DNA of 43,338 bases, taken from NCBI GenBank assembly GCA_030654835.1, contig JAURWS010000010.1, forward strand, positions 1 to 43,338, in the 5' to 3' direction. The notes beneath the pieces are model-generated. The model saw only the letters and a list, made by a program, of their open reading frames with translations, had not been told where the DNA came from and ran no database searches. The stretch is from Gammaproteobacteria bacterium (GTDB taxonomy: Bacteria > Pseudomonadota > Gammaproteobacteria > Pseudomonadales > Pseudohongiellaceae). Shown in pieces: positions 11,013 to 34,558 of the stretch. Position 1 is the first letter of the stretch. Each line of letters opens with the position of its first letter. The translations under genes and the position numbers were made by a program.

Positions 11013-11085
11013 CGTCGGGACCTTAACCTCGGAACCCTGGCGGTATGTAAATCAATTACTTCAACTGCATCAAAAGGAGAGTTGC

Positions 11086-11526
11086 ATGAGTCACTACAAG
11101 AATGTGCTGGTTGCTATCGATGGGTCGGACGAGTCCGTCAAGATTGTGCAGAAGGCGCTGGATCTGATCGCTGGCAGTGGTGCGAAGTTGAGTGTGGCAC
11201 TGGTGTTCGAGACACTGGTTGGCAACTATTCCTACGAATTGAACATGGGTGATTTCCAGAAGGTCCAGCACGAGTTTCAGGAGCAGGTGAGCAAGCACGC
11301 GCGCGAGATGCTGAAGTCGAAATTCCCCTCCATCGCAGCGGCCGATGTGCACTTCCTGCGGGGTAAGGCGGGCAATGAGATCAAGCGGCTGGCAGCGTCC
11401 CTGAAGACAGATCTGGTCGTGATCGGCAGCCACGGCCAGGGGGCGGTGAGTGCGGCGGTGCTGGGCTCGACGGCCAACAGTGTGCTGCACGGGATTCACT
11501 GCGACGTGTACACCGTGCGGGTCTGA
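11086..11526 (+). CDS. Universal stress protein, UspA family
   Basis: 146 residues from the ATG at 11086, preceded by a strong AAAAGGAGA. A single Usp domain: first strand NVLVAIDGSDESVKIVQKAL with the nucleotide-contacting Asp, and the C-terminal ATP-binding signature VVIGSHGQGAVSAAVLGSTANSVLHGIHCDVYTVR (the G-x2-G-x9-G-S pattern). It is therefore of the ATP-binding type. These cytoplasmic dimers accumulate in stress, starvation or hypoxia; here it follows the antiporter gene and may regulate it. It is convergent with the Tll0287-like gene, 40 bp apart. Confidence 0.93.
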   Translation: MSHYKNVLVAIDGSDESVKIVQKALDLIAGSGAKLSVALVFETLVGNYSYELNMGDFQKVQHEFQEQVSKHAREMLKSKFPSIAAADVHFLRGKAGNEIKRLAASLKTDLVVIGSHGQGAVSAAVLGSTANSVLHGIHCDVYTVRV

Positions 11527-11566: not shown

Positions 11567-12226
11567 CTATGGCATGGACTTGCGCAGGCTGATTGCCCCG
11601 CGTATTTGTCCGGCCGTGTAGCCTGTAGCCATGTCATCGGGATAATGCCGCAGCAGCGCGCTGCGCACGTCTTCTGCAATGTCGGTGCCATGGCAGGTCA
11701 GGCACAGAGGGGCTGCGGGTTGTGCCTGCATGTAACGAAACTCTCCCGCGACTATTTCCGCCAGATTGATGTCCGCGCCCTGTTCTCCGCCGCGTTGCCG
11801 CTGATCAAACAGATTCAATCCCATAGTTTCCCAGAAATCCGGTTTCGCTATGTTGCTGTTGCGGGCCTTGAGGCTGACGCGGCGTATATTCCAGCCGGTG
11901 TCGGCACTGAGCTTCGCGGCAATGGCCGGAGCCTCGACTGCACACACCTCAATGGCATTGAGCGGACCACCGGCGGCCATGGCCAACTGCAGCGTGGGCA
12001 GCAGTGTGCCGACGAACTGCTGAGTAATCGCTGCGGCCTCGTTGGTCAAGTCGGTGGGCACCACCATCGGCATGGTCATAGGCGTGCCGGGCGGATAGGG
12101 GTTGGGGACTGAGGTATCAGAGGGATCGTCGGTAGACTGTGCCAGAAGTTGCGCAGTTGGCAGCAGACCCGCAAGCAGGCCGACAGTGGCCAGTGCTCCG
12201 AGAGTGGTTTTCAGTAGTCCTGTCAT
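11567..12226 (-). CDS. Tll0287-like (DUF3365) periplasmic haem c protein
   Basis: 219 residues. Signal peptide in residues 1-30 (LGALATVGLLAGLLPTAQLLAQ), then a Pro/Ser/Thr-rich linker (31-58) and a Tll0287-like domain. Features are AIEVCAVEAPAIAAKLSADTGWNIRRVSLKARN (a segment typical of the domain), FWETMGLNLFDQ, and APLCLTCHG with CLTCH at 175-179 for covalent haem. Such PAS-like haem domains are found alone or as sensor parts of kinases and are thought to sense redox state or gas ligands. Here it is free in the periplasm with no kinase attached. It is divergent from the large operon starting at 12420. Confidence 0.75.
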   Translation of the reverse strand: MTGLLKTTLGALATVGLLAGLLPTAQLLAQSTDDPSDTSVPNPYPPGTPMTMPMVVPTDLTNEAAAITQQFVGTLLPTLQLAMAAGGPLNAIEVCAVEAPAIAAKLSADTGWNIRRVSLKARNSNIAKPDFWETMGLNLFDQRQRGGEQGADINLAEIVAGEFRYMQAQPAAPLCLTCHGTDIAEDVRSALLRHYPDDMATGYTAGQIRGAISLRKSMP

Positions 12227-12419
12227 GGATTGAGTCCTGTCTGCAAGGGAGCTGATAATGGCCGCATGATAGCGCCGTCGCCATGGCGGCGGGTAGACAT
12301 TTCTGTTGCTGTCGAGGTGCCCGCGCGGTTGGTGGCGCGCGCTAACAGGAGTAACATCCGAACGACATCAACAGCGCACGAAGTCGGAAAAAGTCGCCAA
12401 ATCCTGACAGGAGTCATGT

Positions 12420-13187
12420 GTGGTTTTATCCCATCCACAGCCGCTCACGCGAGACACCGTCGCCGAATCTCCCGTGGTTCTGCGCGCGCGCGGACTGAGC
12501 AAGGTTTACTCCATGGGCGAGGTGAGTGTGCATGCACTCAAGGACGTTGACCTGGCGCTGCATCAAGGGGAGCTGCTGGTGTTGCTCGGTGCCTCTGGCA
12601 GCGGCAAGTCGACACTTCTGAATATCCTCGGTGGGCTCGATGTTGCCACCAGCGGCGGTCTCTGGTTCACGGGCCCGGGTGGTGAGGAGCATGACCTCAG
12701 CCATGCCAACCAGGCTGAGTTGACGATGTACCGGCGTGAACACGTGGGTTTCGTTTTTCAGTTCTACAATCTCATTCCCAGCCTGACGGCGCGCGAGAAC
12801 GTGGCGCTCGTGACTGACATCGCCCGCTCACCGATGCGGCCGGAGGATGCGCTCGAACTCGTGGGCCTGGGGCCGCGCATGGATCATTTCCCGGCCCAGC
12901 TTTCCGGCGGCGAACAGCAACGGGTTGCCATCGCCCGCGCCATCGCCAAGCGTCCGCATATTCTGCTGTGTGACGAGCCCACTGGTGCGCTTGATGCCGC
13001 CACTGGGCGCCTGGTGCTCTCGGTGCTGGAGCGTGTCAATCGCGAGACCGGCACCTCCATGGCGATCATCACCCACAATGCGGCCATTGGTTCCATGGGT
13101 GATACCGTAGTGCACATGAGCAGCGGCGAGATCGTCACGCGCGAGCACAACGCACAACGTGCCAACGTGGAGGCTGTGCAGTGGTAG
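12420..13187 (+). CDS. ABC transporter ATP-binding protein (LolD/MacB-type)
   Basis: 255 residues from a GTG at 12420, with CAGGAG just upstream. Complete ABC signature set: Walker [10 protein letters not shown] (about 57-65), Q-loop [10 protein letters not shown], signature LSGGEQQR (161-168), Walker [13 protein letters not shown] (181-192) and H-loop IITHN. This is the MacB/LolD class, which works with FtsX-like permeases and usually does not pump through the membrane but transmits force to periplasmic partners. It is the first gene of a seven-gene operon. Its end overlaps the permease start by 7 bp, and the membrane-fusion gene follows, so the three form one tripartite export system. Substrate is unknown. 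Confidence 0.92.
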
Positions 13188-15601
13188 AGAACCCCGGCGT
13201 CTCCTCTCTTGCTGCCTCCCTCGATGCAAGACTCAGCTGGAGTTCACTGAGCCGCAAACTGTTGCGGGAGTGCTGGCACCTCAAGGGACAGCTGCTGTCG
13301 ATTGCGCTGGTGGTGGCGACCGGCATCATGACCGTTGTGACCATGCGCGGCAGTTATGAAGCACTGGTCGACGCGCAGCAGCGCTACTACAACGAGACGC
13401 GCTTTGCGGATGTCTGGACCTCGCTGCGTCGTGCCCCGGAATCCCTGCGTGAACAGATCGAGGCCATTCCCGGCGTGACACTTGCGGACACGCGGGTGAG
13501 CTTTCTGGCCACTCTCGATCTGGAGGGGCTGGATGCACCGGCGCAGGGGCGCTTCGTGTCCATCCCCGAGAATGGCCGCCCCGTGCTCAACGACATCCTG
13601 CTCACCCAGGGCCGCTATGTTGAGGCGGGCGCGCCGGATGAGGTCATCATCAGCGAGAACTTTGCGCTGGCGCGCGGCCTCAGCCCCGGCGACAGTCTGC
13701 GCGCCATCATCAACGGGCGCGCACGCGAGCTGGAAATTGTCGGCGTGGCCATCTCTCCCGAGCATACCTATTCTGTGCCTCCTGGCTCGCTGATTCCCGA
13801 GGACGATCGTTATGGTGTCCTGTGGATGGGGCGGCGGGCGCTGGGTCCTGCCTACGACATGGAGGGCGCCTTCAACGAAGCCTTCGTGAAACTCAGCCCG
13901 GGCGCCAACGAGCTGGCGGTGATCGCCAGCCTCAATACCTTGCTGACGCCCTATGGTGGCTTCGGCGCCTATGCACGTCGCGATCAATCTTCGCACCTCA
14001 TGCTGCAGGGCGAGCTGGATCAGAATCGCGCGATGGGCACGGTAATTCCCGCTATCTTTCTGGCGGTGGCGGTGTTCCTGTTGCACTTGGTGCTCGGACG
14101 CTTGATCACCACTCAACGCGGCGAGATTGCCGTGCTCAAGGCCTTCGGCTATCGCGACTGGGAGGTCGGTCGGCATTTCCTGATGTTCGCCGTGGTGGCT
14201 ATGTTGTTTGGTGCGCTCATCGGCACGGTGGGTGGGCTGCTGTTGGGGGATGCCTACATCGGCGTGTACCGGCAGTATTTCGATTTGCCCAACCTTGAAT
14301 ACCGACTCAGTCCGCTGCTGCTGGGGATAGCCCTGCTGGTCAGCCTCGCCGGGGCCTTCAGCGGAGCGCTGAGTGCCGTGCGCAAGGCGGTGCGGTTGCC
14401 ACCCGCAGAGGCCATGCGGCCGGAACCGCCCGCTCGTTTCACTCCCGGGGCGCTGGAGCGGCTCGGCATCGGCAGGCTGCTGCCATCCTCGGGCCGCATG
14501 ATCCTGCGCAATCTCGAGCGCAAACCCCTGCAGGCGCTGTTCTCGTCTCTCGGTGTCGCCTTCTCCGTGGCGATTCTGGTGGTCGGGCTGTTCATGTTCG
14601 ATTCGATCAGCTATCTGCTGGAGGTGCAATTTCGGCAGACGCAGCGGGAAGACCTGACGGTCTCCTTTCTGCAGAATCTGCCCGGCGCTGCGCGTCACGA
14701 TCTCGCCCGGCTGGATGGCGTCACTCGCGTGGAAACCTATCGGATGGCGCCTGCCCGCCTGCGTTTCGAACACTGGAGCCGCGAGACGGTAATTCAGGGC
14801 ATGGAGGAGGATGGTCAGCTGCGGCGCATCATCACCGCCGATGGTGGGGTGCAGCCCTTGCCCGCCGACGGTCTGGTGCTGAGTCTGGTGCTGGCGCAAC
14901 GGCTACGGGTAAAGGTCGGCGACACCCTGACGGTGGAGATGCTGGAAGGGCGAAGGCAGACCACCTCGGTGCAGATCGCGGGCATCGTGGATGACCTGCT
15001 GGGGGTCTCAGCCTACATGAACATGCAGGCGCTGCAGCGCCTGACCGGCGAGGTTGACGTGATCTCCGGCGCCTATCTGAGCGTGGAGGAATCGGAGCGC
15101 TCAAACTTGTACAGTGAACTCAAGCTGGCACCTGCAGTGGCCGGGGTCGTCTCACCGGCCTCCATGCTGGCATCGTTCGAAGAACAGTTGGCGCAGAATA
15201 TCTACATCTCCGTCGGCTTTCTGGTCGGTTTTGCGAGCGTGATTGCCGTCGGGGTCATCTACAATGGTGCCCGCATTGGGTTGTCCGAGCGCGGTCGCGA
15301 ACTTGCCAGCCTGCGCGTCATGGGCTTTCGGCGCGGCGAGGTGGCGGTCCTGTTGCTGGGCGAGCAGGCAGTGATTACGTTGCTGGCGATTCCGCTGGGG
15401 TGGATCATCGGTTACTTCATGGGCCTGCTGATGGTGCAGGCATTGCAGACGGACACGTTCCGCGTGCCATTTGTGATCTCGCCACGAACCTATATGCTGG
15501 CTGCAATGATTACCTTGCTGGCCGCAGCTGGCAGTGCGCTGGCGGTGCGCCGCCGCCTCGATGCGATCGATCTGGTCAGTATCTTGAAAACGCGTGAATG
15601 A
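13181..15601 (+). CDS. ABC transporter permease with two FtsX domains
   Basis: 806 residues from a GTG at 13181. Topology: a cytoplasmic N-terminus and TM1 ([16 protein letters not shown]), a large periplasmic MacB-PCD-like domain (about 60-270), three membrane segments with FtsX motif ([17 protein letters not shown] to [16 protein letters not shown]), then a second copy of the same layout (TM about 450-470, periplasmic domain, three final TMs about 665-800). This duplicated build is the long FtsX-permease type. The neighbouring ATPase and membrane-fusion protein make an efflux or lipoprotein/lipid-release role likely. The stop overlaps the next start. Confidence 0.9.
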
Positions 15602-16838
15602 ACGTCTGAAGAAGGAGCCTGGGAACATCTTGAACAACACACCCAAAACAACATCCGCGAATGGCCGCCGCAGCCGCTGGTGGTGGGGCCTGCTTCTGCT
15701 GCTGGGAGCGGGGCTGCTGATTGCGCTGGGTATGCGGCCGCAACCCATGGCGGTGGATACAGCTCTGATCGAGCGACGAGAGCTGCTGGTGACAGTGCAG
15801 GAGCAGGGGCGTGCCCGTGCCAGGGAGCCCTTTATCGTGGCGGCACCTGTCGGCGGGCAATTGTTGCGCACAGTGCTGATCGAGGGCGATCGTGTTCTTG
15901 CCGGACAGGCGCTGAGCAGCATCGCCGTGGCGCCGGAGGATCAACGTACTGAAGCGGTGCTGCGTGCAACCCTGGTGGCCGCACGGGCGCGCGGCACGGC
16001 AGCCGAGGCTGGCATGAGTGAGGCGCAGAGTGCGCTGCAGCTGGCCCAGCAGGAGGCACAGCGCCGGGAGCAACTGTTTGCGCGGCGCTTGATCGGACAA
16101 GAAGAGCGTGACGTTTATCTGCAATCAGCCACTGTTGCGCAGACTCGGCTGCGGGCGGCGCAGGCGACCCTGGACGCTGCGCAGGCGGAAATCGACAGCG
16201 CCAGTGCGCGGTTGATCGGATTCAGTGACGCAGGCCCCGAAGGGCTGGTGCCGGTGCTGGCTCCGACCGCTGGCATCGTGCAGCACGTCTTCGAGAAGAA
16301 TGAACGTATCGTGCCGGCGGGCACCCCGCTGTTTCAGATCAGTCGCGGCGATGCCATGGAGCTGGTGGTGGATCTGCTGACCCAGGAAGCCGTGCAGGTG
16401 ACCCCTGGCGACCGCATGCTGATTTCAGGGTGGGGCGGCGCCGAGACGCTGGAGGCCAAGGTGCGTTACATCGAGCCTGAGGCGTTCACCAAATTTTCAG
16501 CGCTCGGCGTCGAAGAGCAGCGCGTCAATGTCATTGGCGAGTTGCTGGCGAGTAATCCCGCGCTGCGCGCCGAGTATCGCATCGAGGCGGCCATCGTGAC
16601 GTCGGAGCAACCTGCGGCGCTGACCGTGCCCACCAGCGCGATGTTCCGGCGCGATAGCGGCTGGCATGTGTTCGTGGTCGAGGACGGCGTGACGCACCTG
16701 CGTGCCGTCGATGCGGGCGAGCGCAGTGCCGAGTATGCCGAGGTGCTGGGTGGTCTGCAGGAAGGCGAGCGGGTTGTAATCTTCCCTTCCGACGCCGTCG
16801 CCGATGGTGTGCTGGTGCAGCCGAGGAATCAGGATTGA
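15594..16838 (+). CDS. Membrane-fusion (HlyD/RND-type adaptor) protein of the ABC system
   Basis: 414 residues from a GTG at 15594, overlapping the permease stop by 8 bp. One N-terminal membrane anchor (WWWGLLLLLGAGLLIALGM), a lipoyl-like half motif (EPFIVAAPVGGQLLRTVLIEGDRVLAGQAL), and a long coiled-coil hairpin rich in Ala, Gln and Glu (about 120-215). The second lipoyl half follows (VLAPTAGIVQHVFEKNERIVPAGTPLFQI), then the beta-barrel and membrane-proximal domains. It should bridge the inner-membrane permease to the periplasm or to a TolC-like channel encoded elsewhere. The next gene, ackA, begins 4 bp after its stop, so an export system and a fermentation enzyme share one transcript. Confidence 0.88.
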   Translation: MNERLKKEPGNILNNTPKTTSANGRRSRWWWGLLLLLGAGLLIALGMRPQPMAVDTALIERRELLVTVQEQGRARAREPFIVAAPVGGQLLRTVLIEGDRVLAGQALSSIAVAPEDQRTEAVLRATLVAARARGTAAEAGMSEAQSALQLAQQEAQRREQLFARRLIGQEERDVYLQSATVAQTRLRAAQATLDAAQAEIDSASARLIGFSDAGPEGLVPVLAPTAGIVQHVFEKNERIVPAGTPLFQISRGDAMELVVDLLTQEAVQVTPGDRMLISGWGGAETLEAKVRYIEPEAFTKFSALGVEEQRVNVIGELLASNPALRAEYRIEAAIVTSEQPAALTVPTSAMFRRDSGWHVFVVEDGVTHLRAVDAGERSAEYAEVLGGLQEGERVVIFPSDAVADGVLVQPRNQD

Positions 16839-16842
16839 TGTC

Positions 16843-17967
16843 ATGACTCAGAAGTCAGAAACAAACGTACTGCTGTGCAATGGCGGCAGCTCCAGTCTGA
16901 AACTGGCGCAGGTCGTCGCAGGCGATGGGCGCTGCGTGTGGCAGCAGGGGTTCGAGGGCGACGTCGAAACCTTGTGTGCGTCGCTGGGTCTGGCTCTCGA
17001 CAACATGCCCTCGGAAAACCTGCCCATGCCGCAGGCCGTCCTGCACAGAATCGTGCATGCGGGGCTGGTCACGGAGACCCCGGGTCTTCTGGATGCCGCG
17101 CTCCTCGAACGCATCGCGCACTGGGCCCCGCTGGCCCCGTTGCACAATCATCTGGCTCTGCAGTTGATCAGCATCATCGCCGCGCGCTGGCCACAGCTTC
17201 CCCAGTATGCCATCTTCGATTCCGGGCTCTACGCCCACCTGCCGGACGTGGCCTCACATTACGCGCTGCCCGCGGATCTGTCGCCGCGCTGGCCGCTGCG
17301 GCGCTACGGATTTCACGGTCTTGCGCATCGCAGCCAGTGGCGCAGCGTACAGAGGCTCTCGCAGAAAGCATCTAGAATAGCGCCCCGTCGTCTGATCACG
17401 CTGCAACTGGGCAGCGGTTGCTCGGTGACCACCTGGCGTGACGATCAGGCCATTGATACCACGATGGGTTTCACGCCGCTGGAAGGGCTGGTGATGTCGA
17501 CCCGGTGCGGCAGCATCGATCCCGGCATTGTTCTGCATCTGCTGCGCCAGGAAAAATTGTCGGTGAACGAACTGGACAGCGTGCTCAGTCGGCGCTCAGG
17601 CCTGGCCGCACTCGGCGCGGGCAATGGCGACATGCGCGCGGTGCTGGCGCTGGAACCCGCTCGTGCCAGCGCGGCACTGGCCCACTATGCCATGCAGATC
17701 CGCAAAAGTGTTGGTGCCGCCATCGCGGTGCTGGGCGGCGTCGACGCCATCAGCATCGGCGGCGGCGTTGGCGAGCACCAGCCCGTAGTGCGGCAGGCGA
17801 TTTTTGCGGGACTGGATGAACTGGGCATCGTGCTGGATCCCGAACGCAACCAGCACGCCGAGCGCCACACCGAATTGCACACGAATGAGAGTGTCGTGGC
17901 ACTGTGGTTGTGCCAGGTAGATGAGATGGACGAGATGTGGCGACAATACAAGATTCTGGGTTGTTAA
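16843..17967 (+). CDS. ackA: Acetate kinase
   Basis: 374 residues from the ATG at 16843, slightly shorter than the usual 400. Residues known to matter in the family are kept: NGGSSSLKL near the N-terminus (N13, S16, S18), the Arg in VLHRIVHAG, the Asp in AIFDSGLYAHLP, the His in RRYGFHGLAH, the Arg in STRCGSIDPGI, and the Glu in the C-terminal HTNESVVALW. It should therefore be active: acetyl phosphate + ADP to acetate + ATP, cytoplasmic. Some canonical blocks are loosened (LQLGSGCSVTTW for HLGNGSS), so it is a divergent member. It lies directly before the phosphoketolase gene, which would supply acetyl phosphate. A 15-bp tandem repeat covers its stop codon. Confidence 0.88.
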   Translation: MTQKSETNVLLCNGGSSSLKLAQVVAGDGRCVWQQGFEGDVETLCASLGLALDNMPSENLPMPQAVLHRIVHAGLVTETPGLLDAALLERIAHWAPLAPLHNHLALQLISIIAARWPQLPQYAIFDSGLYAHLPDVASHYALPADLSPRWPLRRYGFHGLAHRSQWRSVQRLSQKASRIAPRRLITLQLGSGCSVTTWRDDQAIDTTMGFTPLEGLVMSTRCGSIDPGIVLHLLRQEKLSVNELDSVLSRRSGLAALGAGNGDMRAVLALEPARASAALAHYAMQIRKSVGAAIAVLGGVDAISIGGGVGEHQPVVRQAIFAGLDELGIVLDPERNQHAERHTELHTNESVVALWLCQVDEMDEMWRQYKILGC

Positions 17968-17985
17968 TTCCTGGGTTGTTAATTC
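17956..17985 (+). repeat. 15-bp tandem duplication across the ackA stop codon
   Basis: CTGGGTTGTTAATTC occurs twice in direct succession; the first copy contains the TAA of ackA. It lengthens the ackA-phosphoketolase gap. Confidence 0.85.
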
Positions 17986-18010
17986 ATTGATACATGAGAG
18001 AGGTAACGCC

Positions 18011-20320
18011 ATGGGCGGCAAGAGCGAACAGTGGCGTGCAGGCTGCGGTGTCATTCAACACGATAGTGTGACCTGTGAGCGCGTGACGCAATTGGTGCAA
18101 CGCCTGGAGCAGAAGGGCGTCTGTAGCGCCGAAACGGCGTGGGATTTGTTGCTGGCTGCCGACCGGTTGGCCAGTATGGGGCTGTGGCTGACGGCACACA
18201 TGACCTATGCCCGTCAGGTCTATCTCGATGGCCGCCCCATGGTGCCCGAGGACTTCAAGGTCGTCCCCGAAGGACACACCGGTGGCGCCCTGAATATCGT
18301 GCTCGCCTATGTGGGCTATCTGCTGGCCAATGCGCTGAGCGGCACCACCCGTGCCTGGGTGATGGGGCAGGGGCACTGTGTGGCGGCGATCGATGCCGTC
18401 AATGTGCTGACTCGCAATCTGGAGCCCGAACAGGACGCACGCTACCCTCTCTCCGACGCCGGCCTGAGCCGTCTGTGCCAGGACTTCTACAGCTACGAGA
18501 TCGGCCCGGACGGGCGTCCCGTGGCGCCGCTGGGCAGCCACGTCAACGTCTACACCGCGGGCGGTATCAGCGAAGGCGGTTACCTGGGTTTCGCGGGTCT
18601 GCAATACGTCCACATGCCTCTGCCCGGGCAGGAGCTGGTGAGCTTCCTGAGTGACGGCGCCTTCGAGGAACAGCGCGGCAGTGACTGGGCAGCGCGCTGG
18701 TGGCGAGGCGAGGATACGGGGTTGGTGATGCCGGTGATGATCGCCAACGGGCGGCGCATCGATCAGCGCACCACCATGTCCCAGTCCGGTGGTGTGCACT
18801 GGTTCCGCGAACACCTGCAGCTCAATGGTTTCGAACCAGTCGATATTGACGGCCGCGACCCCGCCGCGTTCGCGTGGTCCATTCTGTATATGGCCGAGCG
18901 GCTGCAACAGCAGCACGAGGCGATTCGAGCCGGGCGCAGCCAGTATCCAGTGCTGCTGCCCTATGCGATCGCCGAGACCATCAAGGGCTTCGGCTTTCCC
19001 GGAGCCGGCACCAATGCTGCACACAACCTGCCGCTGCCGGGCAGCGCCGCGCTGGATGTCGCCAGCCGCGAGGCTTTCAACAGTGGTTGTGCGGCGCTGC
19101 ATGTCGCGCCGGAGCTTTTGCAGAGCGCGGTTCGTACACTTGGCACTCATGCCGCCCAGCGGCGTGTTCTGGAAAGAGATCACTGCCTGCGCAAGCTGGA
19201 GGTCGCCGCTCCGGTGATCCCTGCGCCGCGCGATATCGCCATGGGGCAGTCCATCGCGCCAATGGCCGCCATCGACGAGTGGTTCATCCAGTTCGTGCAG
19301 ACCAATCCGGGCCTGCGGGTGCGGGTCGGCAATCCCGACGAGATGCGCAGCAACCGCATGAACAAGACGCTGGACCTGCTCAAACATCGCGTCACTTCAC
19401 CCGAGGCGGGCATCGCCGAGTCGCTCCATGGCAGCGTGATTACCGCCCTCAATGAAGAGGCAGTGATCAGCGCCGCACTCGCCAATAAGCAGGGCATCGG
19501 CCTCGCGGTCAGTTACGAGGCCTTCGCGGTGAAGATGCTCGGCGCCATGCGCCAGGAAGTCATCTTCGCACGCCACACGCTGGAGACGGGGCGGGCGCTG
19601 CAGTGGTTGTCGGTGCCTGTGCTGGTCAGCTCCCACACCTGGGAAAACGGCAAGAACGAACAATCCCATCAAGACCCGACGCTGTGCGAGGCGTGGTTGG
19701 GTGAAATGGCTGACGTGGCACCTGTGTATTTTCCCTTCGATGGCAACTCGGCGGTTGCCGTGCTGACATCGCTATATCAGCAGCGCGGTAGAGTGGCGAC
19801 GGTCGTGGCCGCGAAGAATGTCGGATCCGTCTACTGCACGGCGGCGCAAGCGCAGCAGGTAGTGCGCGACGGTGCGCTGCTGCTCAGTCACGATGCAGGC
19901 GCGCAACTGCAACTGCTGGCGATCGGCTCTTACCAGCTCAGCGCCGTGTTGCAAGCGGCAACGGAGCTGCGTGCGCAGCATATCGCCTGCTCTGTGGTGG
20001 CCATCATCGAGCCGGGGCGGTTCCGCCTGCCGCGTGACGAGCGCGAGGCGGCCTATGTGCTGAGCGATGACGCGATTGCGGCGCTCATTCCGGCAGTGCA
20101 GCGGCGCGTGATTGTCTGTCACACGCATGCCGAGGTGATGACGGGTGTGCTGCGGCGCCTGGACACGGGGCCTGCACACACGCTGGTGCTCGGCTACCGC
20201 AATCGTGGTGGCACACTGGATGTGGCAGGCATGCAGTTTGCGAATGGTCAGGACATGCCACGGATCGTCAGTGCAGCGCAGGGATTGCTGACGAAGAGTC
20301 TGCTTACGAAGAAAGCGTAA
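18011..20320 (+). CDS. Divergent phosphoketolase (XFP family)
   Basis: 769 residues from the ATG at 18011 (GAGAGG upstream), the normal length for xylulose-5-phosphate/fructose-6-phosphate phosphoketolases, which are thiamine-diphosphate enzymes forming acetyl phosphate. Family landmarks: VPEGHTGGALNIVLAY (87-102, for GHWGTTPGLN), MGQGH (118-122, for GPGH), GGISEGGYLG (184-193, for GSIHEGGELG), VSYEAFAVK and SHQDPTLCEAW (about 551-561). The ThDP motif GDGEAE is replaced by SDGAFE (214-219) with MIANG (243-247) as the distal Asn end. Loss of the motif Glu and Gly makes this a separate subfamily whose reaction may differ. Adjacent acetate kinase supports acetyl phosphate production. Confidence 0.8.
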   Translation: MGGKSEQWRAGCGVIQHDSVTCERVTQLVQRLEQKGVCSAETAWDLLLAADRLASMGLWLTAHMTYARQVYLDGRPMVPEDFKVVPEGHTGGALNIVLAYVGYLLANALSGTTRAWVMGQGHCVAAIDAVNVLTRNLEPEQDARYPLSDAGLSRLCQDFYSYEIGPDGRPVAPLGSHVNVYTAGGISEGGYLGFAGLQYVHMPLPGQELVSFLSDGAFEEQRGSDWAARWWRGEDTGLVMPVMIANGRRIDQRTTMSQSGGVHWFREHLQLNGFEPVDIDGRDPAAFAWSILYMAERLQQQHEAIRAGRSQYPVLLPYAIAETIKGFGFPGAGTNAAHNLPLPGSAALDVASREAFNSGCAALHVAPELLQSAVRTLGTHAAQRRVLERDHCLRKLEVAAPVIPAPRDIAMGQSIAPMAAIDEWFIQFVQTNPGLRVRVGNPDEMRSNRMNKTLDLLKHRVTSPEAGIAESLHGSVITALNEEAVISAALANKQGIGLAVSYEAFAVKMLGAMRQEVIFARHTLETGRALQWLSVPVLVSSHTWENGKNEQSHQDPTLCEAWLGEMADVAPVYFPFDGNSAVAVLTSLYQQRGRVATVVAAKNVGSVYCTAAQAQQVVRDGALLLSHDAGAQLQLLAIGSYQLSAVLQAATELRAQHIACSVVAIIEPGRFRLPRDEREAAYVLSDDAIAALIPAVQRRVIVCHTHAEVMTGVLRRLDTGPAHTLVLGYRNRGGTLDVAGMQFANGQDMPRIVSAAQGLLTKSLLTKKA

Positions 20321-20332
20321 GAGGAAACAAGA

Positions 20333-21949
20333 ATGAGCATTCAGGAAGAGCCGGGAGTTGAGCTTGTGGTGGAGCCCGTAGTGGAGCCGGTAACAGAGCG
20401 AGTAGTAGTGCCTGCAGTAGAGCCAGAAATTGAAATAGGCGCTGAGGATTTCCTCTATCTGACCTGCCTCGGCATCGACACTCACCAGGAGCCCATCGTC
20501 TACATGCGCGAGGACTGCCACGTCTGCCGCTCGGAGGGTTTCAGTGCACAGGGGCGCGTGCTCATCTGCCTCGGCGACCGCAGCATCATCGCCACGCTCA
20601 ACATCGTCACTGGCGATTTTCTCAGCCATCAGAAGGCGGCACTGAGCAATAGCGCCTGGCGCCTGCTGGGTGCGAAAGAGGGCGATAAGGCCATCTTCAA
20701 GCACGCGCCGCCCGTAGAGTCGATGAGTCATGTGCGTGGCAAGCTCTATGGCAAGCCATTCACGCTGCAGGCGGCACGCGAAATCATCAACGATATCAGC
20801 CGCGAACAGTATTCCGACATCCAGCTGTCAGCGTATGTGACGGCCTGCGCGGCCAATGCGCTCAGTCTCGACGAGACCATTGCCATCACCCAGGCCATGG
20901 TGGAGTGTGGGCAGCGCTTCAACTGGGGCATCGGAGTGCAGGTGCTGGACAAGCATTGCGTCGGCGGGCTGCCAGGCAATCGCACTACGCCCATCGTCGT
21001 GGCAATTGTCGCGGCCAATGGCCTGCTCATGCCCAAGACTTCCTCGCGCGCCATTACCTCGCCTGCTGGCACTGCCGATACCATGGAGACGCTCACCAAT
21101 GTGACTCTCAGCCTCGACCAGATGCATTCGGTAGTGAGGTCGCAAGGTGCGTGTCTGGCCTGGGGTGGCTCGGTGGCTCTCAGCCCTACCGACGACATCA
21201 TCATTCGTGTGGAACGGGCACTGAATCTGGATAGCGAAGGCCAGTTGGTGGCCTCCGTCATCTCCAAGAAGGTCGCCGCCGGTTCTACCCATGTACTGAT
21301 CGATATTCCGGTGGGCGCCACCGCCAAGGTGCGAAGTCCCGATCTGGCCGCTCACCTCGGGCAACTGTTGACGAGCACCGGCGAGGCGCTGGGCCTCAAG
21401 GTGCGCATCATCATCAGCGATGGCTCGCAGCCGGTAGGGCGCGGCATAGGCCCGGCGCTGGAGGCGCGCGACGTGCTGGCCGTGTTGCAGTGCGCCGAGC
21501 AGGCGCCTTCGGATCTGCGCGAGCGTGCCCTGACACTGGCCGCCATTCTGCTGGAGATGGGCGGCGTCTGCCCGGAAGGCGACGGCATGGCGCTGGCCAC
21601 GCAAACGCTGGGCAATAGGTTGGCCTGGAAAAAATTCAAGGCGATATGTGAGGCACAAGGAGCGTTGAAGACGCCACCAGTAGCGGCCTTTCAGTATCCC
21701 ATCGTGTCGGAGAAGACGGGTATCGTTGCGATGTTCAACAACCGGGTGATCTCGCGGCTGGCGAGTCTTGCCGGAGCTCCCAGTGCTCCGGCGGCGGGGC
21801 TGGACCTGCACGTGCAGCTTGGGCAGAAAGTCGAGCGCGGTCAGCCGCTGATGACCTTGCATGCCGAGGCACAGGGCGAGCTGAATTACGCACTGGAGTT
21901 CTACCGATCGCACCCTGAGGTGTTGCACATCGAAGAGGAAGTCGTATGA
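20333..21949 (+). CDS. Thymidine phosphorylase / AMP phosphorylase family enzyme
   Basis: 538 residues. Residues 1-35 form an acidic low-complexity tail with Val-Glu-Pro repeats (VELVVEPVVEPV, VVVPAVEPEIE). Residues 36-120 are the N-terminal extra domain of the long (about 500-residue) family that includes archaeal AMP phosphorylase. The catalytic core has KHCVGGLPGNRTTPIVV (phosphate binding, about 207-223) and KTSSRAITSPAGTADTMETL (about 235-254), then the C-terminal barrel-sandwich hybrid domain with LHVQLGQKVERGQPL. The reaction is phosphorolysis of a nucleoside (or of NMP for the AMP phosphorylase subtype) to base and ribose-1-phosphate (or ribose 1,5-bisphosphate). I cannot decide the substrate. 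It overlaps the PRPP synthetase gene by 4 bp. Confidence 0.85.
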   Translation: MSIQEEPGVELVVEPVVEPVTERVVVPAVEPEIEIGAEDFLYLTCLGIDTHQEPIVYMREDCHVCRSEGFSAQGRVLICLGDRSIIATLNIVTGDFLSHQKAALSNSAWRLLGAKEGDKAIFKHAPPVESMSHVRGKLYGKPFTLQAAREIINDISREQYSDIQLSAYVTACAANALSLDETIAITQAMVECGQRFNWGIGVQVLDKHCVGGLPGNRTTPIVVAIVAANGLLMPKTSSRAITSPAGTADTMETLTNVTLSLDQMHSVVRSQGACLAWGGSVALSPTDDIIIRVERALNLDSEGQLVASVISKKVAAGSTHVLIDIPVGATAKVRSPDLAAHLGQLLTSTGEALGLKVRIIISDGSQPVGRGIGPALEARDVLAVLQCAEQAPSDLRERALTLAAILLEMGGVCPEGDGMALATQTLGNRLAWKKFKAICEAQGALKTPPVAAFQYPIVSEKTGIVAMFNNRVISRLASLAGAPSAPAAGLDLHVQLGQKVERGQPLMTLHAEAQGELNYALEFYRSHPEVLHIEEEVV

Positions 21950-22839
21950 AGCGCGTGTTGTTGACCATGCCGGGGCAGGCGACACTGGCAGAAAGCCTGT
22001 GCGAGCAGGCTGATTTGCAAACGGGCCTGCAGGCCGGGCAAATGGAGCTGCGACGGTTTCCAGATGGAGAGAGTTATGTGCGGGTGTTGAGCGACGTCAA
22101 GGGCGCTGACGTCGCCATTCTCTGTCAGCTGCATCACCCCGATGACAAGATTCTGCCGCTGCTGCTGCTGGTGAGCACACTGCGCGACCTCGGCGTGCGG
22201 CGCGTCGGTTTGATTGCGCCGTATCTGGCCTACATGCGTCAGGACAAACGTTTTCATGAAGGGGAGGGCATCAGTGCCCGCTACTTCGCCCGCCTGCTCA
22301 GTCAGCAGGTGGACTGGCTGCTCACCGTCGACCCGCATCTGCACCGCATCCATGCCCTCAGCGAGGTCTACAGCATTCCGGCGCTGGCGCTGACGGCGGT
22401 GCAGCCGATTGCCTCCTGGCTGCGTGCCAACATCGACAAACCCGTGGTGATCGGGCCAGACGGCGAATCCGAACAGTGGGCGGCGCGAGTGGCGGAGGCC
22501 ACGGGCTGCCCTTACGAGGTGCTCACCAAGGAGCGTTTCGGAGATCGCGATGTGCGCGTGTCATTGCCGCATGTCGACGCCTACCGAAAGCACACACCGG
22601 TGCTGGTGGATGACATCATCAGCACCGGGCGCACGATGCTGCAAGCGGCAGCACATTTGCAGGCGGCTGGTTTGTGCGCACCAGTGTGCATCGGCGTGCA
22701 TGGTATTTTCGCCGCCGGTGCGCTGGCCGAGATGCAGGCGGCCGGACTGCGCGTGGTGACCAGCAACAGCATCCCGGATGTGAGCAATCAGATCGATCTG
22801 GCTCCATTGCTGGCGCAGGGGCTGCAGCATCTGCTCTGA
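21946..22839 (+). CDS. Ribose-phosphate pyrophosphokinase (PRPP synthetase), divergent
   Basis: 297 residues, slightly shorter than housekeeping Prs (about 315). Signatures: MELRRFPDGESYVRV (N-terminal fold), YMRQDKRFHEGEGISARYFARLL (ATP/PPi loop, about 96-118), LLTVDPHLHRIHALSEVYSIPA (Mg/ribose-phosphate region; VDPHLHR replaces the bacterial DLHA), the flexible-loop Lys in LTKERFGD, and the PRPP loop VLVDDIISTGRTM (220-232). The VDPHLH form recalls the archaeal-type enzymes rather than E. coli Prs. Reaction: ribose 5-phosphate + ATP to PRPP + AMP, or the reverse. Last gene of the operon, translationally coupled (ATGA) to the phosphorylase. A housekeeping prs is expected elsewhere. Confidence 0.87.
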   Translation: MKRVLLTMPGQATLAESLCEQADLQTGLQAGQMELRRFPDGESYVRVLSDVKGADVAILCQLHHPDDKILPLLLLVSTLRDLGVRRVGLIAPYLAYMRQDKRFHEGEGISARYFARLLSQQVDWLLTVDPHLHRIHALSEVYSIPALALTAVQPIASWLRANIDKPVVIGPDGESEQWAARVAEATGCPYEVLTKERFGDRDVRVSLPHVDAYRKHTPVLVDDIISTGRTMLQAAAHLQAAGLCAPVCIGVHGIFAAGALAEMQAAGLRVVTSNSIPDVSNQIDLAPLLAQGLQHLL

Positions 22840-22845
22840 GGTCTC

Positions 22846-25530
22846 TCACTGGGCCTCTTGATTGCCCTCTTTACGAAAGACCATAGAGAGCGCCTTGTCT
22901 GCTTCCACCACCATCAGCACCACGCTCGACGCCAGCAGAATCAGTCCCCAGTCCTGCAGCGTCAGCGCGCTGACCGCAAAGATTCGTTGCGACAGCGGCA
23001 GATAGGTGAACAGCAACTGCACCAGTATTACCAAACCGATGGAGATCAACACCGGGCCGATCCCCCTGAAAATGTCGCGGTGAAAGATGGACTGCGTGAA
23101 GAAGCGGCTGCTCAGCAGGTAGAGCCCCTCGATCATGACCATGGTATTCACCGCCACGGTGCGTGCGTAGTCGATGGGGAAATCGCGCTGCAGGTAGTAA
23201 CTGAATATCGTGAACACGACGATGGCGCCACTTACCCCAACCAGCAGCAATCGCCTGAGCAGCATCGGCGTGATGAAGCCCTGCCCATAGGGGCGTGGCG
23301 GCCGCTCCATGATCTGTTTCTCCGCAGCCTCGAACGCCAGTGCCAGTGACAATGTCACCGTGGTCACCATGTTGATCCAGAGAATCTGCGGCGCGGTGAT
23401 TGGCAGCAGCCAGCCGAACAGGATGGCGAGCAGAATGATGCTGGCCTCGGCCAGATTGGTGGGCAGCATGAAGACGATGGACTTGAGGGTGTTGTCGTAG
23501 ACGGTACGTCCGGCCTCCACGGCACGGGCGATGGTGGCAAAGTTGTCGTCAGTCAGCACGAAGTCGGCGGCCTCCCGTGCTGCGTCGGTGCCCTTCAGGC
23601 CCATGGCGACGCCGATATCCGCTTGACGCAGCGCCGGGGCGTCGTTGACTCCGTCACCGGTCATGGCGACCACATGGCGATGATTCTGCAGGCTCTGCAC
23701 CAGCTGCAGTTTGTTGGCCGGGCTGGTGCGTGCATAGATGTCCACTTCTTCGGCCGCGAGCGCGAGCTCCTCGGCACTCATGGCGTCCAGCTCCTGGCCG
23801 GTCAACACTCTCTCCGTGTTCAGACCCAGTTCGCGGCCGATGGCGGCGGCGGTGACGGGATTGTCCCCGGTGATCATCATCACGCGGATGCCGGCGCGAT
23901 GGGAGTCAGCGATGGCGGCGATTGCCTCGTGTCGAGGAGGATCGCTGATGCCAACCAAGGCGATCAGCAGCATGTCATGACTGATGTCATCGTGGTCGAG
24001 GCTGGTCTTGTCAGCGTCGACATTCCTGTAGGCCAGCGCCATCACCCGCATGCCGCGCTCCGCGAGTCCAATGATCTTCTCGTGCCACAGCGTTGCCTGC
24101 AGAGGCTCCGCGCCGTTGTCGCCGAGTTGCTGCGAACAGAAGCCCAGCAGGCGCTCCGGCGCCCCCTTGAGCATGATCTGCGACACGCCCTCGGGGCTGC
24201 GGTTCAGAGTGGCCATGTAACGACGTTCCGCCTCGAAGGGCAGCACATCCAGACGCTGCCAGGTGCGATTCACCGCGACGGCATCCAGCCCCTGTTTCAT
24301 GGCCAGCACATAGAGCGCGCCTTCAGTCGGGTCGCCGTTGATGACCCACTGGCCATCAGCCTTTTTTTCCACATTGGATTCGTTGCACAGCACGGCGACA
24401 AGAGCCGCCTGCTCCAGAAGGGGCAGGGCCGCCTCGCCGGGTTCTCCGATGCTGCCCTCGGGTGAATAACCCTCGCCACTGACCTCAAAGCGCCGCGTGG
24501 CACTCTCAAGGACGCGCACGGTCATGGCGTTGGCGGTCAGCGTGCCGGTCTTGTCGGTACAGATGATATCGACGGAGCCGAGCACCTCGACGGCGGGCAG
24601 GCGCCGCACCAACGCATTGCTGCGCGCCATGCGCATCACGCCGATGGCCAGCACGATGGTGACGATGGCCGGCAGCTCCTCGGGAATCGCCGCGACGGCG
24701 ATGGCGATGGCCCCTTGCAGCATTTCGCCGAAACTGTAGTCATGCACCAGCATGCCGAAGGCGATGATGGCGGCGGACAATATCAGCACGGCGATGGTGA
24801 GATTGCGGGCTAGGTCTGCGAGTTGTTTCTGCAGCGGGGTCTGACTGATGGCGACCGCCTGTACCATGGTGTTGATGGTGCCGATCTCGGTGCTGGAGCC
24901 GGTATTGGTCACCACGCCACGCGCGGTACCGGCGACCACCATGGTGCCCATGAACACCATGTTATGACGTTCGGCCAGAGGCGTGGCGACGGGCACCGTC
25001 ATCGTGTGTTTGCCCAACGGGTTGGACTCACCGGTCAGCGCCGATTCATCGCAGCGCAATTCCTTGCTGGAGAGCAGCCGCATATCGGCTGGCACACGGT
25101 CGCCAGCCTGCAGCTGCACGAGATCGCCTGGCACCAGCGCGGCGGCATCCATGCTGCGCAGCTGTCCGTCGCGCTGCACCAGACATACGGTTGTCGTCAT
25201 GGAAAGAATGGCGCGCAGGGCTTCCTCGGCCTTGCCTTCCTGAATGAATCCGATGATGCCGTTGATGATGACAACTGCGAGAATGACGCCAGCGTCGACG
25301 TAGTGTCCGAGCATGACGCTGAGCCCGGCGCTGAGCATCAGCACATAGATGAAGAGGCTGCGGAACTGGCGCAACAGGCGCTGCCAGGCCGGTGTTGGCG
25401 GTTCTTCTGGAAGACGATTGGGGCCGACACTTGCGAGCCGTTCAGCGGCGCTGGCGCTGTCCAGCCCCTCGGGTCCGCTCTGCAACTCTGCCAGCAGTTC
25501 CTGTTCCGTGCATGCGTGAGGAGCATTCAT
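22846..25530 (-). CDS. P-type cation-transporting ATPase (P2 class)
   Basis: 894 residues. N-terminal cation-ATPase domain (1-75), actuator loop TGES (166-169), M4 motif AIPEELPAIVTIVLAIGVMRMA (281-302), phosphorylation site CTDKTGTLT (324-332), nucleotide-binding MLKGAPERLL (453-462), TGDNPVTA (554-561), hinge TGDGVNDAPALRQADIG (624-640), then a C-terminal cation-ATPase domain with six membrane segments. The PEELP form of M4 and the overall length place it among Ca2+/Mn2+/Na+-type P2 pumps; the ion is not certain. ATG at 25530 with GGAGG upstream. It follows the RNase gene by 13 bp and is the last gene of the 27630-22846 operon, convergent with the PRPP synthetase gene 6 bp away. Confidence 0.92.
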   Translation of the reverse strand: MNAPHACTEQELLAELQSGPEGLDSASAAERLASVGPNRLPEEPPTPAWQRLLRQFRSLFIYVLMLSAGLSVMLGHYVDAGVILAVVIINGIIGFIQEGKAEEALRAILSMTTTVCLVQRDGQLRSMDAAALVPGDLVQLQAGDRVPADMRLLSSKELRCDESALTGESNPLGKHTMTVPVATPLAERHNMVFMGTMVVAGTARGVVTNTGSSTEIGTINTMVQAVAISQTPLQKQLADLARNLTIAVLILSAAIIAFGMLVHDYSFGEMLQGAIAIAVAAIPEELPAIVTIVLAIGVMRMARSNALVRRLPAVEVLGSVDIICTDKTGTLTANAMTVRVLESATRRFEVSGEGYSPEGSIGEPGEAALPLLEQAALVAVLCNESNVEKKADGQWVINGDPTEGALYVLAMKQGLDAVAVNRTWQRLDVLPFEAERRYMATLNRSPEGVSQIMLKGAPERLLGFCSQQLGDNGAEPLQATLWHEKIIGLAERGMRVMALAYRNVDADKTSLDHDDISHDMLLIALVGISDPPRHEAIAAIADSHRAGIRVMMITGDNPVTAAAIGRELGLNTERVLTGQELDAMSAEELALAAEEVDIYARTSPANKLQLVQSLQNHRHVVAMTGDGVNDAPALRQADIGVAMGLKGTDAAREAADFVLTDDNFATIARAVEAGRTVYDNTLKSIVFMLPTNLAEASIILLAILFGWLLPITAPQILWINMVTTVTLSLALAFEAAEKQIMERPPRPYGQGFITPMLLRRLLLVGVSGAIVVFTIFSYYLQRDFPIDYARTVAVNTMVMIEGLYLLSSRFFTQSIFHRDIFRGIGPVLISIGLVILVQLLFTYLPLSQRIFAVSALTLQDWGLILLASSVVLMVVEADKALSMVFRKEGNQEAQ

Positions 25531-25543
25531 GCTCGCGGCCTCC

Positions 25544-26947
25544 TCAGAACGCCACGCTCTGGCCCAGAACGGGGATCTCGCTGCGTATGCGGTGCTCAGT
25601 CCACAGCGTCTGCGATAGCGTCTCCAACGCCTGCGCCTCTCCGTGCACCAGCATCAGACGCGGGGCAGGATTGAAGTTTCTGGCCCAGGCGATCAATTCA
25701 CTCTGGCCCGCGTGTGCCGAGAAACCACCGAGCGTCTCGATGCGGGCGCGCACCACGAACTCATCACCGAACAGGCGGATTTTTTTCTCGCCATCCACGA
25801 GCCGACGGCCCAGTGTGCCGCGCGCCTGAAAGCCGATGAACAGCAGGGTATTGTTGTCTTTCCAGATGCGATGCTTGAAGTGATGACGAATGCGGCCGCC
25901 GGTGCACATGCCGCTGCCAGCGATGATGATGGCACCCTGCTTGATCTTGTTGATGGCCATCGATTCTTCGGAGCTGTTGCACAGCTTCAAGGTGGGCAGA
26001 AATTCCGCCAGTGATTCGCGCCCGGAATCATTCAGGCATTGTATGTCCTTGTCATCCATGATGTTGAGCCAGCGGTCATACACCTGGGTGACTTCGATCG
26101 CCATCGGGCTGTCGAGAAACACCTGCCAGTCGTCCAGCAGTCCATCTTTGTAGAGACAGCCAAGGTGATAGATGATCTCCTGCGAGCGGCCCACGGCAAA
26201 AGCCGGGATCAGTACGTTGCCGCCGCGCTCCCAGGTCTCGTGCAGAATCTGCTCCAGCTGCTCCACGGTGTTGTCGATCGTGCGATGGTTGCGATCGCCG
26301 TACGTGCCCTCCATCAACAGCAGATCGGCGCTGCTCAGCGCGACCGGATCATTCATCAGCACCGAGTCGGCCTTGCCCAGATCTCCGGAGAAAACCAGCC
26401 GCGAGGTCTTGCCCTTCTCATCAAGAGTCACTTCGACAATCGCCGAGCCGAGGATGTGCCCGGCATCGTGAAAGACGAGGTTCGCCTGCGGGGTGATCGC
26501 CACGTTGCTGCTATAAGGTGCCGTGCTGCACTGTTTGATGACGGCGTCGACATCCTTCTCGCTGTACTCGGCTTCCAGGGCCGGACGTCCGCTACGGGCG
26601 CGGCGCAGATTCTCGTGCTCGATGTCGCGGTGGTAGAGACCGGAGGCATCCTCCAGCAAAATCCGCAACAGCCCCTTGGTGGCCTGCGTGCAATAGATTG
26701 GTCCGCGAAATCCCTGATTGACCAGCATCGGCAGCATGCCCGAGTGATCCAGGTGGGCATGGGAGAGAATGACAGCATCGATGGTGTCCGGGTCGAAGAG
26801 AAAACCTTCTTCTTGCACGCGCTCAATGGCATCGCCGCCCTGGCGCACGCCGCAGTCTAGCAGCACTCGACCAATGGAGGGGGATTCCAGCAGATAGCAC
26901 GAGCCTGTCACTTCCTGTGCTGCCCCATAAAACGTCAATACTGCCAT
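25544..26947 (-). CDS. MBL-fold beta-CASP ribonuclease (RNA-processing exonuclease family)
   Basis: 467 residues, the size of single-chain beta-CASP nucleases. Metallo-beta-lactamase motif 2 HAHLDHSG (63-70), motif 3 FHDAGHILGSAIVEV, motif 4 VFSGDLGKADS; then the beta-CASP inserts with LLMEGTYGDRNH, VLIPAFAVGRSQEII, IIAGSGMCTGGRIRHH, RLFGDEFVVRARIETLGGFSAHAGQSELIAW and LMLVHGEAQALETL. It lacks the KH domains of archaeal homologues. The family cleaves RNA (CPSF73/TTHA0252 type) in the cytoplasm with two zinc ions. TAGGAGATAGTGC precedes the ATG. Its place next to a phosphorylase, PRPP synthetase and phosphoketolase suggests RNA turnover that feeds nucleotide salvage. Confidence 0.9.
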   Translation of the reverse strand: MAVLTFYGAAQEVTGSCYLLESPSIGRVLLDCGVRQGGDAIERVQEEGFLFDPDTIDAVILSHAHLDHSGMLPMLVNQGFRGPIYCTQATKGLLRILLEDASGLYHRDIEHENLRRARSGRPALEAEYSEKDVDAVIKQCSTAPYSSNVAITPQANLVFHDAGHILGSAIVEVTLDEKGKTSRLVFSGDLGKADSVLMNDPVALSSADLLLMEGTYGDRNHRTIDNTVEQLEQILHETWERGGNVLIPAFAVGRSQEIIYHLGCLYKDGLLDDWQVFLDSPMAIEVTQVYDRWLNIMDDKDIQCLNDSGRESLAEFLPTLKLCNSSEESMAINKIKQGAIIIAGSGMCTGGRIRHHFKHRIWKDNNTLLFIGFQARGTLGRRLVDGEKKIRLFGDEFVVRARIETLGGFSAHAGQSELIAWARNFNPAPRLMLVHGEAQALETLSQTLWTEHRIRSEIPVLGQSVAF

Positions 26948-26973: not shown

Positions 26974-27630
26974 TCAAGGAACGCTGCTGAACAGGATATC
27001 CGCAAACCAGGCACGGGCGCTGAGCCCGCTGTTGTCAGTGTCCACCATGACGGCGAGGCCGTCCAGGTTTTGAATGTCTTCGCCGAAGGCCTCGCGCCAG
27101 TCGGCACGGATGTCGCGGCTGTGGCTGCTCCACTCACCGGCCTTGGCATCGCCGCTGTCCAATGCCCACATATGCACGTTCTGACCAGCGTAGGGGTTTG
27201 CCCAGTGCGTGTCGGCGGGAATGCTGCCCGACCAGACATAGCTGATGGATTTGGGGCGCCAGAAGGTCAGTCCTCCGTCACGAATCACATAGACCCGCGC
27301 TGCATAATCGTCACCGCGCTTGCTGCGCTCGTCGATCTCCGAGCCCAGCGTGCGTTCCACTCGCCAGCGCCAGTGCAGAAAGGGTGTCTCTTCGAGATTG
27401 ATGCGCTGAGCTTGATAGAGAGCACTGGCGCTGTCATTGGCCTCGCCGCGCAATACCCGTTCGCCATCCAGCACGACACTGCGGTAGACAGTGGAGTTTC
27501 TGAAAATCCGTTCCTGCCAGCGCAGCATGTCCACAGGCCTGATGATCGGCGCTGCATCGCTCGCCGAAGATGGAGCTGGCAGTACCAGTACGGCCGCCGT
27601 CAGAGCTATGGCTTTTACGTAGGGCTTCAT
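26974..27630 (-). CDS. DUF3047 secreted protein
   Basis: 218 residues. Signal peptide (ALTAAVLVLPAPSSASDA, cleavage near residue 24). The mature sequence matches the DUF3047 pattern: RVLRGEANDSASALYQ, PFLHWRWRVERTL, KRGDDYAARVYVIRDGG, SISYVWSGS, DIRADWREAFGED and LAVMVDTDNSGLSARAWFADILF. The C-terminal half looks like a jelly-roll or carbohydrate-binding-like domain. Function is unknown in the family. It is the first gene of the minus-strand operon, 26 bp before the RNase gene, with a divergent promoter region of 95 bp shared with soxC. No strong ribosome binding site is visible. Confidence 0.8.
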   Translation of the reverse strand: MKPYVKAIALTAAVLVLPAPSSASDAAPIIRPVDMLRWQERIFRNSTVYRSVVLDGERVLRGEANDSASALYQAQRINLEETPFLHWRWRVERTLGSEIDERSKRGDDYAARVYVIRDGGLTFWRPKSISYVWSGSIPADTHWANPYAGQNVHMWALDSGDAKAGEWSSHSRDIRADWREAFGEDIQNLDGLAVMVDTDNSGLSARAWFADILFSSVP

Positions 27631-34474: not shown

Positions 34475-34502
34475 TGCTCCAGGTTCCACTGCGGCTTCAA
34501 CG

Positions 34503-34540: not shown

Positions 34541-34558
34541 ATGCCGCGAATTTTGGGG

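Follow-up and report, generated by a model that had tools for sequence, protein, structure and literature searches.

A bacterial gene module pairing an NMP-phosphorylase-type enzyme with a Prs-like protein, and its possible role in phosphorolytic RNA catabolism

In this study, we examined a stretch of 43,338 nucleotides (the window; contig JAURWS010000010.1) from a Pseudohongiellaceae genome (3.84 Mb in 60 contigs; completeness 100, contamination 1.71) and relate its cluster of genes for a nucleoside monophosphate (NMP)-phosphorylase-type enzyme, a Prs-like enzyme (Prs2), a beta-CASP ribonuclease (RNase), a phosphoketolase homologue (Xfp) and an acetate kinase homologue (AckA) to the closest described systems. 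The phosphoketolase-acetate kinase branch is known in heterofermentative and bifid-type form. As in that branch, Xfp stands here beside AckA, so that acetyl phosphate could give ATP, but the window Xfp belongs to a divergent family and is joined to genes for RNA and NMP breakdown. The archaeal NMP shunt, or pentose bisphosphate pathway, comprises NMP phosphorylase, ribose 1,5-bisphosphate (R15P) isomerase and RuBisCO, as outlined in one report (PMC9700705). The window holds a homologue of the NMP phosphorylase, whose step leads from NMP to R15P; in contrast to the archaeal system, neither R15P isomerase nor RuBisCO was found in the window genome (60 contigs), and the partner is Prs2 instead. 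In Bradyrhizobium, bll3117-3115 and bll2518-2517 carry the same five product names, are lowered in a fixK2 mutant and, in four of five cases, are raised at 0.5% O2, but they form two separate unlinked operons rather than one locus, and the accessible portions of the two reports propose no pathway (PMC6515984, PMC9104804). The phosphoketolase PA3613 of Pseudomonas aeruginosa is listed as up in low O2 in a further report (PMC8575079). Among the open-licence literature matches listed, no title or abstract opening describes the combined pathway discussed below; relative to these matches, the core pair of genes and the likely fate that we infer for R15P appear new.

The five genes of interest are the following.

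20333..21949, + strand: NMP-phosphorylase-type enzyme (PRK04350), 538 amino acids; NF003338, 643.7 bits, cut-off 434
21946..22839, + strand: Prs-like enzyme of the PRK07199 family (Prs2); NF005537, 387.8 bits, cut-off 322
25544..26947, - strand: beta-CASP RNase, TTHA0252 type; PF10996, PF07521
18011..20320, + strand: divergent phosphoketolase homologue (Xfp); PF03894 1.8e-39, PF09364 1.5e-12; open reading frame (ORF) from 17921, ATG at 18011 more likely
16843..17967, + strand: acetate kinase homologue (AckA); PF00871 1.8e-72; likely ATG at 16843, start shifted from 16804

The starts of the last two were reset by eye from the position of the ribosome-binding site. The grouping of these genes goes beyond local chance: it is a real and widespread module, carried on chromosomes and plasmids, whose core is the phosphorylase with Prs2, often accompanied by the RNase, and to which Xfp and AckA are added in a minority of loci. 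A survey of 299 genomes from the same phylum (phosphorylase at E up to 1e-80, Prs2 at E up to 1e-60, beta-CASP model A1 at E up to 1e-90) found the phosphorylase in 36 genomes (25 of 154 by genus) and Prs2 in 34 of these 36, as against none of the 263 others (Fisher p 9e-43). Of the 31 single-copy genomes in which one contig carries both genes, 30 have them within 200 bp of each other, the exception (G293) having a gap of 4.4 kb that holds Xfp and the RNase; in G236 the pair is on different contigs. Beta-CASP RNase was present in 63 genomes of the survey, comprising 23 of the 36 with the phosphorylase and 40 of the 263 without (p 2e-9). Neighbourhoods were compared by phmmer with seeds from the window and from plasmids, setting 37 phosphorylase regions outside the window genome (several ending at contig ends, one after only 1.3 kb) against 40 control regions placed by hand in 20 of the same genomes. 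Prs was found in 34 regions versus 0 controls, beta-CASP in 17 versus 0, Xfp in 5 versus 0 and AckA in 4 versus 1. The initial annotation had considered that the set might be confined to this one strain; the search instead recovered it across bacterial groups.

A scan of named genomes yielded 35 bacterial loci (L003-L036 and L049) in 33 genomes, which were selected through patterns taken from the window protein. Of these loci, 30 have Prs, 28 beta-CASP, 18 Xfp and 7 AckA, with two (L007, L019) stopping before the position of Prs. When the window proteins served as phmmer queries, no match to Prs, beta-CASP, Xfp or AckA appeared in 39 loci of archaeal or candidate-phylum type (L037-L048 and L050-L076, many short, and L053 titled Proteobacteria). 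Judged by the phosphorylase, the closest named relatives are metagenome-assembled genomes (MAGs) of Gammaproteobacteria, four of which are titled Pseudohongiella. The phosphorylase also occurs on 114 of 72,556 plasmid records, 45 of these 114 being predicted conjugative. In the 11 records whose annotation was examined, all 11 had Prs nearby and 10 had a metallo-beta-lactamase (MBL; beta-CASP) gene, the remaining record being truncated at its start. Five list a phosphoketolase or a protein called xylulose 5-phosphate 3-epimerase, and one lists acetate kinase. Consecutive genes are found also in distant hosts: a plasmid of Legionella fallonii has beta-CASP, phosphorylase, Prs and phosphoketolase, Pontibacter (Bacteroidota) has an ATP-cone protein, beta-CASP, phosphorylase and Prs, and a Criblamydia plasmid (Chlamydiota) has phosphoketolase, alpha-glucan phosphorylase, an ATP-cone protein, beta-CASP, phosphorylase, Prs and finally acetate kinase. 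Xfp and AckA thus share a locus with the phosphorylase both in Pseudohongiella-type bacteria and on the Criblamydia plasmid. As a separate observation, the alpha-glucan phosphorylase and ATP-cone genes of that plasmid lie inside the module (L112:10084-12622), as if glycogen phosphorolysis were coupled to it too.

The window phosphorylase passes the PRK04350 cut-off (above) and that of TIGR02645 (570.4 against 434.6 bits). Its nearest solved structures are 4ga5/4ga4, and it retains the SSRAITS sequence present in the archaeal enzyme of known structure. As regards the long AMP-phosphorylase layout attributed to it earlier, it scores below the cut-off of the AMP phosphorylase equivalog TIGR03327. 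By analogy with the archaeal enzyme, it would split NMP with phosphate into the base and R15P. The KHS motif of the family, at window positions 20951-20959, is KHC in 71 of 81 bacterial trio-type rows; cysteine occupies this place in 1 of 39 other rows.

Prs2 scores above the PRK07199 cut-off and that of TIGR01251 (193.7 against 113 bits), and carries the VDPHLH variant first noted in it. We aligned 73 rows (the window and 72 loci), some of them repeated: L025/L135 are apparently one contig, and L019/L020 and L029/L030 each come from a single MAG. Residues F38, D40, E42, R98, Q99, D100, K195, R197, D222 and D223 are kept in 72 or 73 of the 73 rows and shared with the housekeeping copy; G41 of the FPDGE motif is kept in 67. 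Two signatures mark the clade. In DPHLHR, H133 and R134 follow DPHL in every row. In GPDxESxQW, G170, D172 and E174 are invariant, with S175 in 70 and W178 in 72 rows; GPDxES stands where housekeeping prs has SPDxGG, and the ES pair is missing also from three solved relatives. Distances among Prs2 sequences track those among the phosphorylases (rho 0.86, n 73), as do those of Xfp (rho 0.73, n 28) and AckA (rho 0.72, n 13), the RNase tracking poorly (rho 0.36, n 52). A single-sequence structure prediction of Prs2 gave a predicted local distance difference test (pLDDT) score of 38.5 and was not used.

The initial annotation regarded both proteins as dedicated paralogues and proposed a check for a second prs and a deoA in the genome. 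For Prs2 this reading holds, a second, ordinary prs lying on another contig (G000 C9), so that Prs2 is not the housekeeping copy; beyond being a paralogue, it is linked to the phosphorylase more closely than any other part. The phosphorylase is the sole family member found in the genome (the other, weak match is TrpD), so that of the two proteins it alone agrees with the refuting condition of a single genomic copy; it is not an ordinary thymidine phosphorylase (DeoA) either, and no separate DeoA was found in the 60 contigs. An NMP phosphorylase in a bacterium in which RuBisCO was not found raises the question of where R15P goes, and near-exclusive pairing with one Prs subfamily offers a testable answer. 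The single R15P-isomerase-like match in the genome is MtnA, above its own cut-off. Because the archaeal outlets were not found and because the pairing is so close to exclusive, Prs2 is the best candidate for taking the product of the phosphorylase. Synthetase chemistry for phosphoribosyl pyrophosphate (PRPP), reversed on R15P and AMP, would yield ribose 5-phosphate (R5P) and ADP. It is possible, if doubtful, that Prs2 represents a new enzyme, which transfers the anomeric phosphate from R15P to AMP or converts PRPP + AMP to R5P + ATP, and so completes the NMP shunt in bacteria free of RuBisCO. If so, RNA breakdown itself would yield a high-energy phosphate ahead of phosphoketolase, and under low oxygen a cell could turn its own RNA into acetate by fermentation.

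Xfp and AckA of this locus are the only XFP gene and the only acetate kinase found in the window genome. Xfp exceeds the cut-offs of Pfam XFP (135.7 against 22) and XFP_N (47.5 against 23.7) and falls short of the NCBIfam PRK05261 cut-offs (best 129 against 962); it is 58% and 55% identical to plasmid proteins labelled xylulose 5-phosphate 3-epimerase and 22% identical to classical phosphoketolase. It is thus a very divergent homologue. Across 16 active-site columns compared with solved phosphoketolases and three classical rows, most residues are kept, one histidine being K578. At the module, Xfp is classical in Criblamydia, Thiobacillus and L122 and divergent in the window, Rhizobium and Novosphingobium; since both kinds keep the same gene company, we argue for one job. 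Divergent Xfp adjoins beta-CASP in all 6 XFP-bearing genomes of family f3, which may be Pseudomonadaceae, none of which has the phosphorylase there (in L203 the beta-CASP match is split over two ORFs), and a calcium-pump-like ATPase in both XFP-bearing f5 genomes. Separately, the divergent phosphoketolase gene of L201 and L202 has a P-type ATPase of calcium-pump-like kind as its neighbour, with neither phosphorylase nor RNase.

AckA matches PF00871 and keeps its catalytic residues when aligned to solved acetate kinases through their motifs, as first described, with a score under the TIGR00016 cut-off (232.8 against 293.4). A link between the two enzymes comes from decay. In four loci (L012, L013, L014 and L021; L012 partial), Xfp has lost several catalytic residues; this clade, 87-99% identical within itself, sits beside the trio and is under purifying selection, with ratios of nonsynonymous to synonymous substitution (dN/dS) of 0.05-0.08 in three full pairs. 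Acetate kinase (E up to 1e-10) was found in none of these four genomes, compared with 13 of the 14 genomes whose locus carries an intact Xfp (divergent in 13, classical in 1; Fisher p 0.0016), the remaining one being the fragmented MAG of L019/L020 and all these genomes being of unstated completeness; L016 (partial AckA) and L017 (no AckA), which have no Xfp at the locus, are left out of the count. Such an absence is what a shared acetyl-phosphate intermediate predicts. Adjacency and correlated decay together suggest that Xfp makes acetyl phosphate and AckA makes ATP from it.

The beta-CASP RNase has TTHA0252 as its closest solved relative (6.3e-87). In an alignment of 8 rows, H63, H65, D67, H68, H164, D189, E213, H412 and H435 are invariant; these correspond to the HxHxDH motif, later metal ligands and beta-CASP residues.

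On balance, and by a modest preference, we read the locus as a conserved bacterial module for phosphorolytic RNA and NMP catabolism that feeds a phosphoketolase-acetate kinase ATP step. The RNase, judged by its family, would cut RNA; the PRK04350 enzyme would then convert NMP and phosphate to base and R15P, as published for the archaeal homologue. Prs2 may return the bisphosphate to R5P, probably by a reversal of PRPP synthesis in which AMP or ADP is the acceptor; this is the weakest step. Housekeeping isomerase and epimerase would lead on to xylulose 5-phosphate, from which the phosphoketolase homologue would form acetyl phosphate for AckA to use. Earlier, a path from RNA through ribose phosphates to ATP had been proposed; its overall direction is favoured here, but it contained a gap, as NMP phosphorolysis yields R15P and not R5P. 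Because the first steps use phosphate rather than ATP, such a route would suit cells short of energy, for example in low oxygen. Should the pathway operate, RNA would be a reserve of energy on which cells could draw with neither oxygen nor priming by ATP, by a module able to travel on plasmids.

Low-oxygen use, also suggested initially, finds support in same-named genes elsewhere. In Bradyrhizobium at 0.5% O2, bll3115-3117 (MBL, Prs, thymidine-phosphorylase family) and the phosphoketolase gene bll2518 were up by log2 2.9, 4.4, 2.1 and 4.3 (PMC6515984). Deletion of fixK2 lowered bll2518, bll2517 (acetate kinase), bll3117 and bll3115 by 10.0-, 10.2-, 6.6- and 30.6-fold, and putative FixK2 boxes are given at both operons, bll3116 being named only as an operon member in the portion of the paper available (PMC9104804). 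In the window itself, with up to two mismatches to the consensus allowed, FNR-type boxes gave 24 matches versus a mean of 12.7 in shuffles. One FNR/FixK-like palindrome, TTGACTTTGGTCAA at window 31163-31176, lies upstream of a TonB-dependent receptor at 31493.

Several observations weigh against the catabolic reading. None of the FNR-type boxes falls within 12113-12419 or 27631-27692, where the promoters are presumed to lie, and we therefore make no claim of regulation for the window genome. The Bradyrhizobium genes did not change in bacteroids of soybean and are placed outside the direct FixK2 set that an earlier study had defined (PMC6515984), and they are equated with the window genes by product name and gene order. 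The phosphorylase scores 453.4 bits against the 535 of TIGR03327. Our co-occurrence p-values ignore kinship, the genomes not being independent. Association with the phosphorylase is weak for XFP (12 of 36 genomes versus 36 of 263, p 0.006) and acetate kinase (25 of 36 versus 120 of 263, p 0.008), and family f33 (11 of the 36 genomes) has the phosphorylase-Prs2 pair with no beta-CASP match. Two surveyed genomes (G249, G255) have the phosphorylase without Prs2, these being the weakest full or partial phosphorylase matches of the list; L024 and L031 likewise lack Prs, and in Thiobacillus (L022) phosphorylase, AckA and Xfp follow one another directly with no Prs. The classical phosphoketolase histidine is lysine in 24 of 25 divergent rows, so the reaction of divergent Xfp could differ, and the link between Xfp decay and AckA comes from one clade, about one event, with three of the four genomes being MAGs. 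Finally, the negative for RuBisCO and R15P isomerase leaves aside other users of R15P, namely PhnN and phosphatases, for which no search was made.

Alternatively, the pair could control nucleotide pools, removing AMP and recycling ribose into PRPP for base salvage with Prs2 running in its normal direction, while Xfp and AckA would be neighbours with a separate stress role. Retention of the PRPP-synthetase residues in 72 or 73 of the 73 Prs2 rows, and the lack of AckA and Xfp at most loci, fit this view, yet we hold it to be unlikely: an ordinary Prs is encoded elsewhere in the genome, and both the linkage to an RNase and the joint fixK2 dependence in Bradyrhizobium (PMC9104804) point to catabolism. 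Less likely again is a mobile stress island, on which unrelated useful genes (metal pumps, exporters, Usp, energy enzymes) would have gathered, their linkage reflecting transfer and common regulation instead of one pathway. The plasmid-borne phosphorylases (114 of 72,556 records, 45 predicted conjugative) and the copper and other metal genes that are frequent neighbours agree with it; however, the phosphorylase-Prs2 pair is far tighter than other neighbours, occurs also on contigs of millions of bases, and shows the correlated distances noted above (rho 0.86, n 73). We reject as highly improbable that the beta-CASP protein is a nuclease of defence, Cas14-like as in type VII CRISPR or of another kind, for although Cas14 is its top NCBIfam match (400.5 bits), the score is half of the NF045584 cut-off (800), PADLOC gave 0 matches for 8 proteins, no CRISPR-like array was found in 9000-31500, and the TTHA0252 RNase is a closer solved relative.

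The neighbours of the five genes are as follows.

10990..11526, + strand: universal stress protein, upstream neighbour; PF00582
12420..13187, + strand: ATP-binding cassette (ABC) transporter ATPase, LolD/MacB type; PF00005 7e-32
13181..15601, + strand: FtsX/MacB-type ABC permease, 806 amino acids; PF02687, PF12704
15594..16838, + strand: periplasmic adaptor; TIGR01730, 104.8 bits, cut-off 94.9
22846..25530, - strand: P-type cation ATPase, nearest to calcium-pump models; Pfam E1-E2 set, calcium equivalogs under their cut-offs
26974..27630, - strand: DUF3047 protein, upstream gene of the - strand run; PF11249 7.8e-56

All genes named in the initial annotation are present and complete by profile matches to Pfam and NCBIfam and by their ORFs, and the coordinates bear out its convergent, closely packed operons: the + and - strand runs meet with a gap of 6 bp, and starts and stops overlap in the + run at 13187/13181, 15601/15594 and 21949/21946. 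No RNA family reached its gathering score in the window. In the neighbourhood comparison, a P-type ATPase of the calcium-pump kind was present in 3 of 37 regions and 1 of 40 controls, and an ABC ATPase with an FtsX permease in 3 of 37 and none of 40. A Usp gene occurs also in L005, L006, L008 and L009, and the DUF3047 gene adjoins beta-CASP also in L005, L006, L008, L020 and L032. Beyond it, window 27693-29589 holds a molybdopterin oxidoreductase, tentatively read as SorA-like, and then a cytochrome c gene; a molybdopterin oxidoreductase is also near the module in L005, L006, L008, L009, L020 and L032. Further along, three + strand ORFs of 257, 421 and 472 amino acids in window 34451-38686 have 0 Pfam matches, and a - strand ORF of 1370 amino acids at 34559-38671 runs opposite them. 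At the left end of the window (18-4165) lie a DUF222/HNH gene and a DDE transposase.

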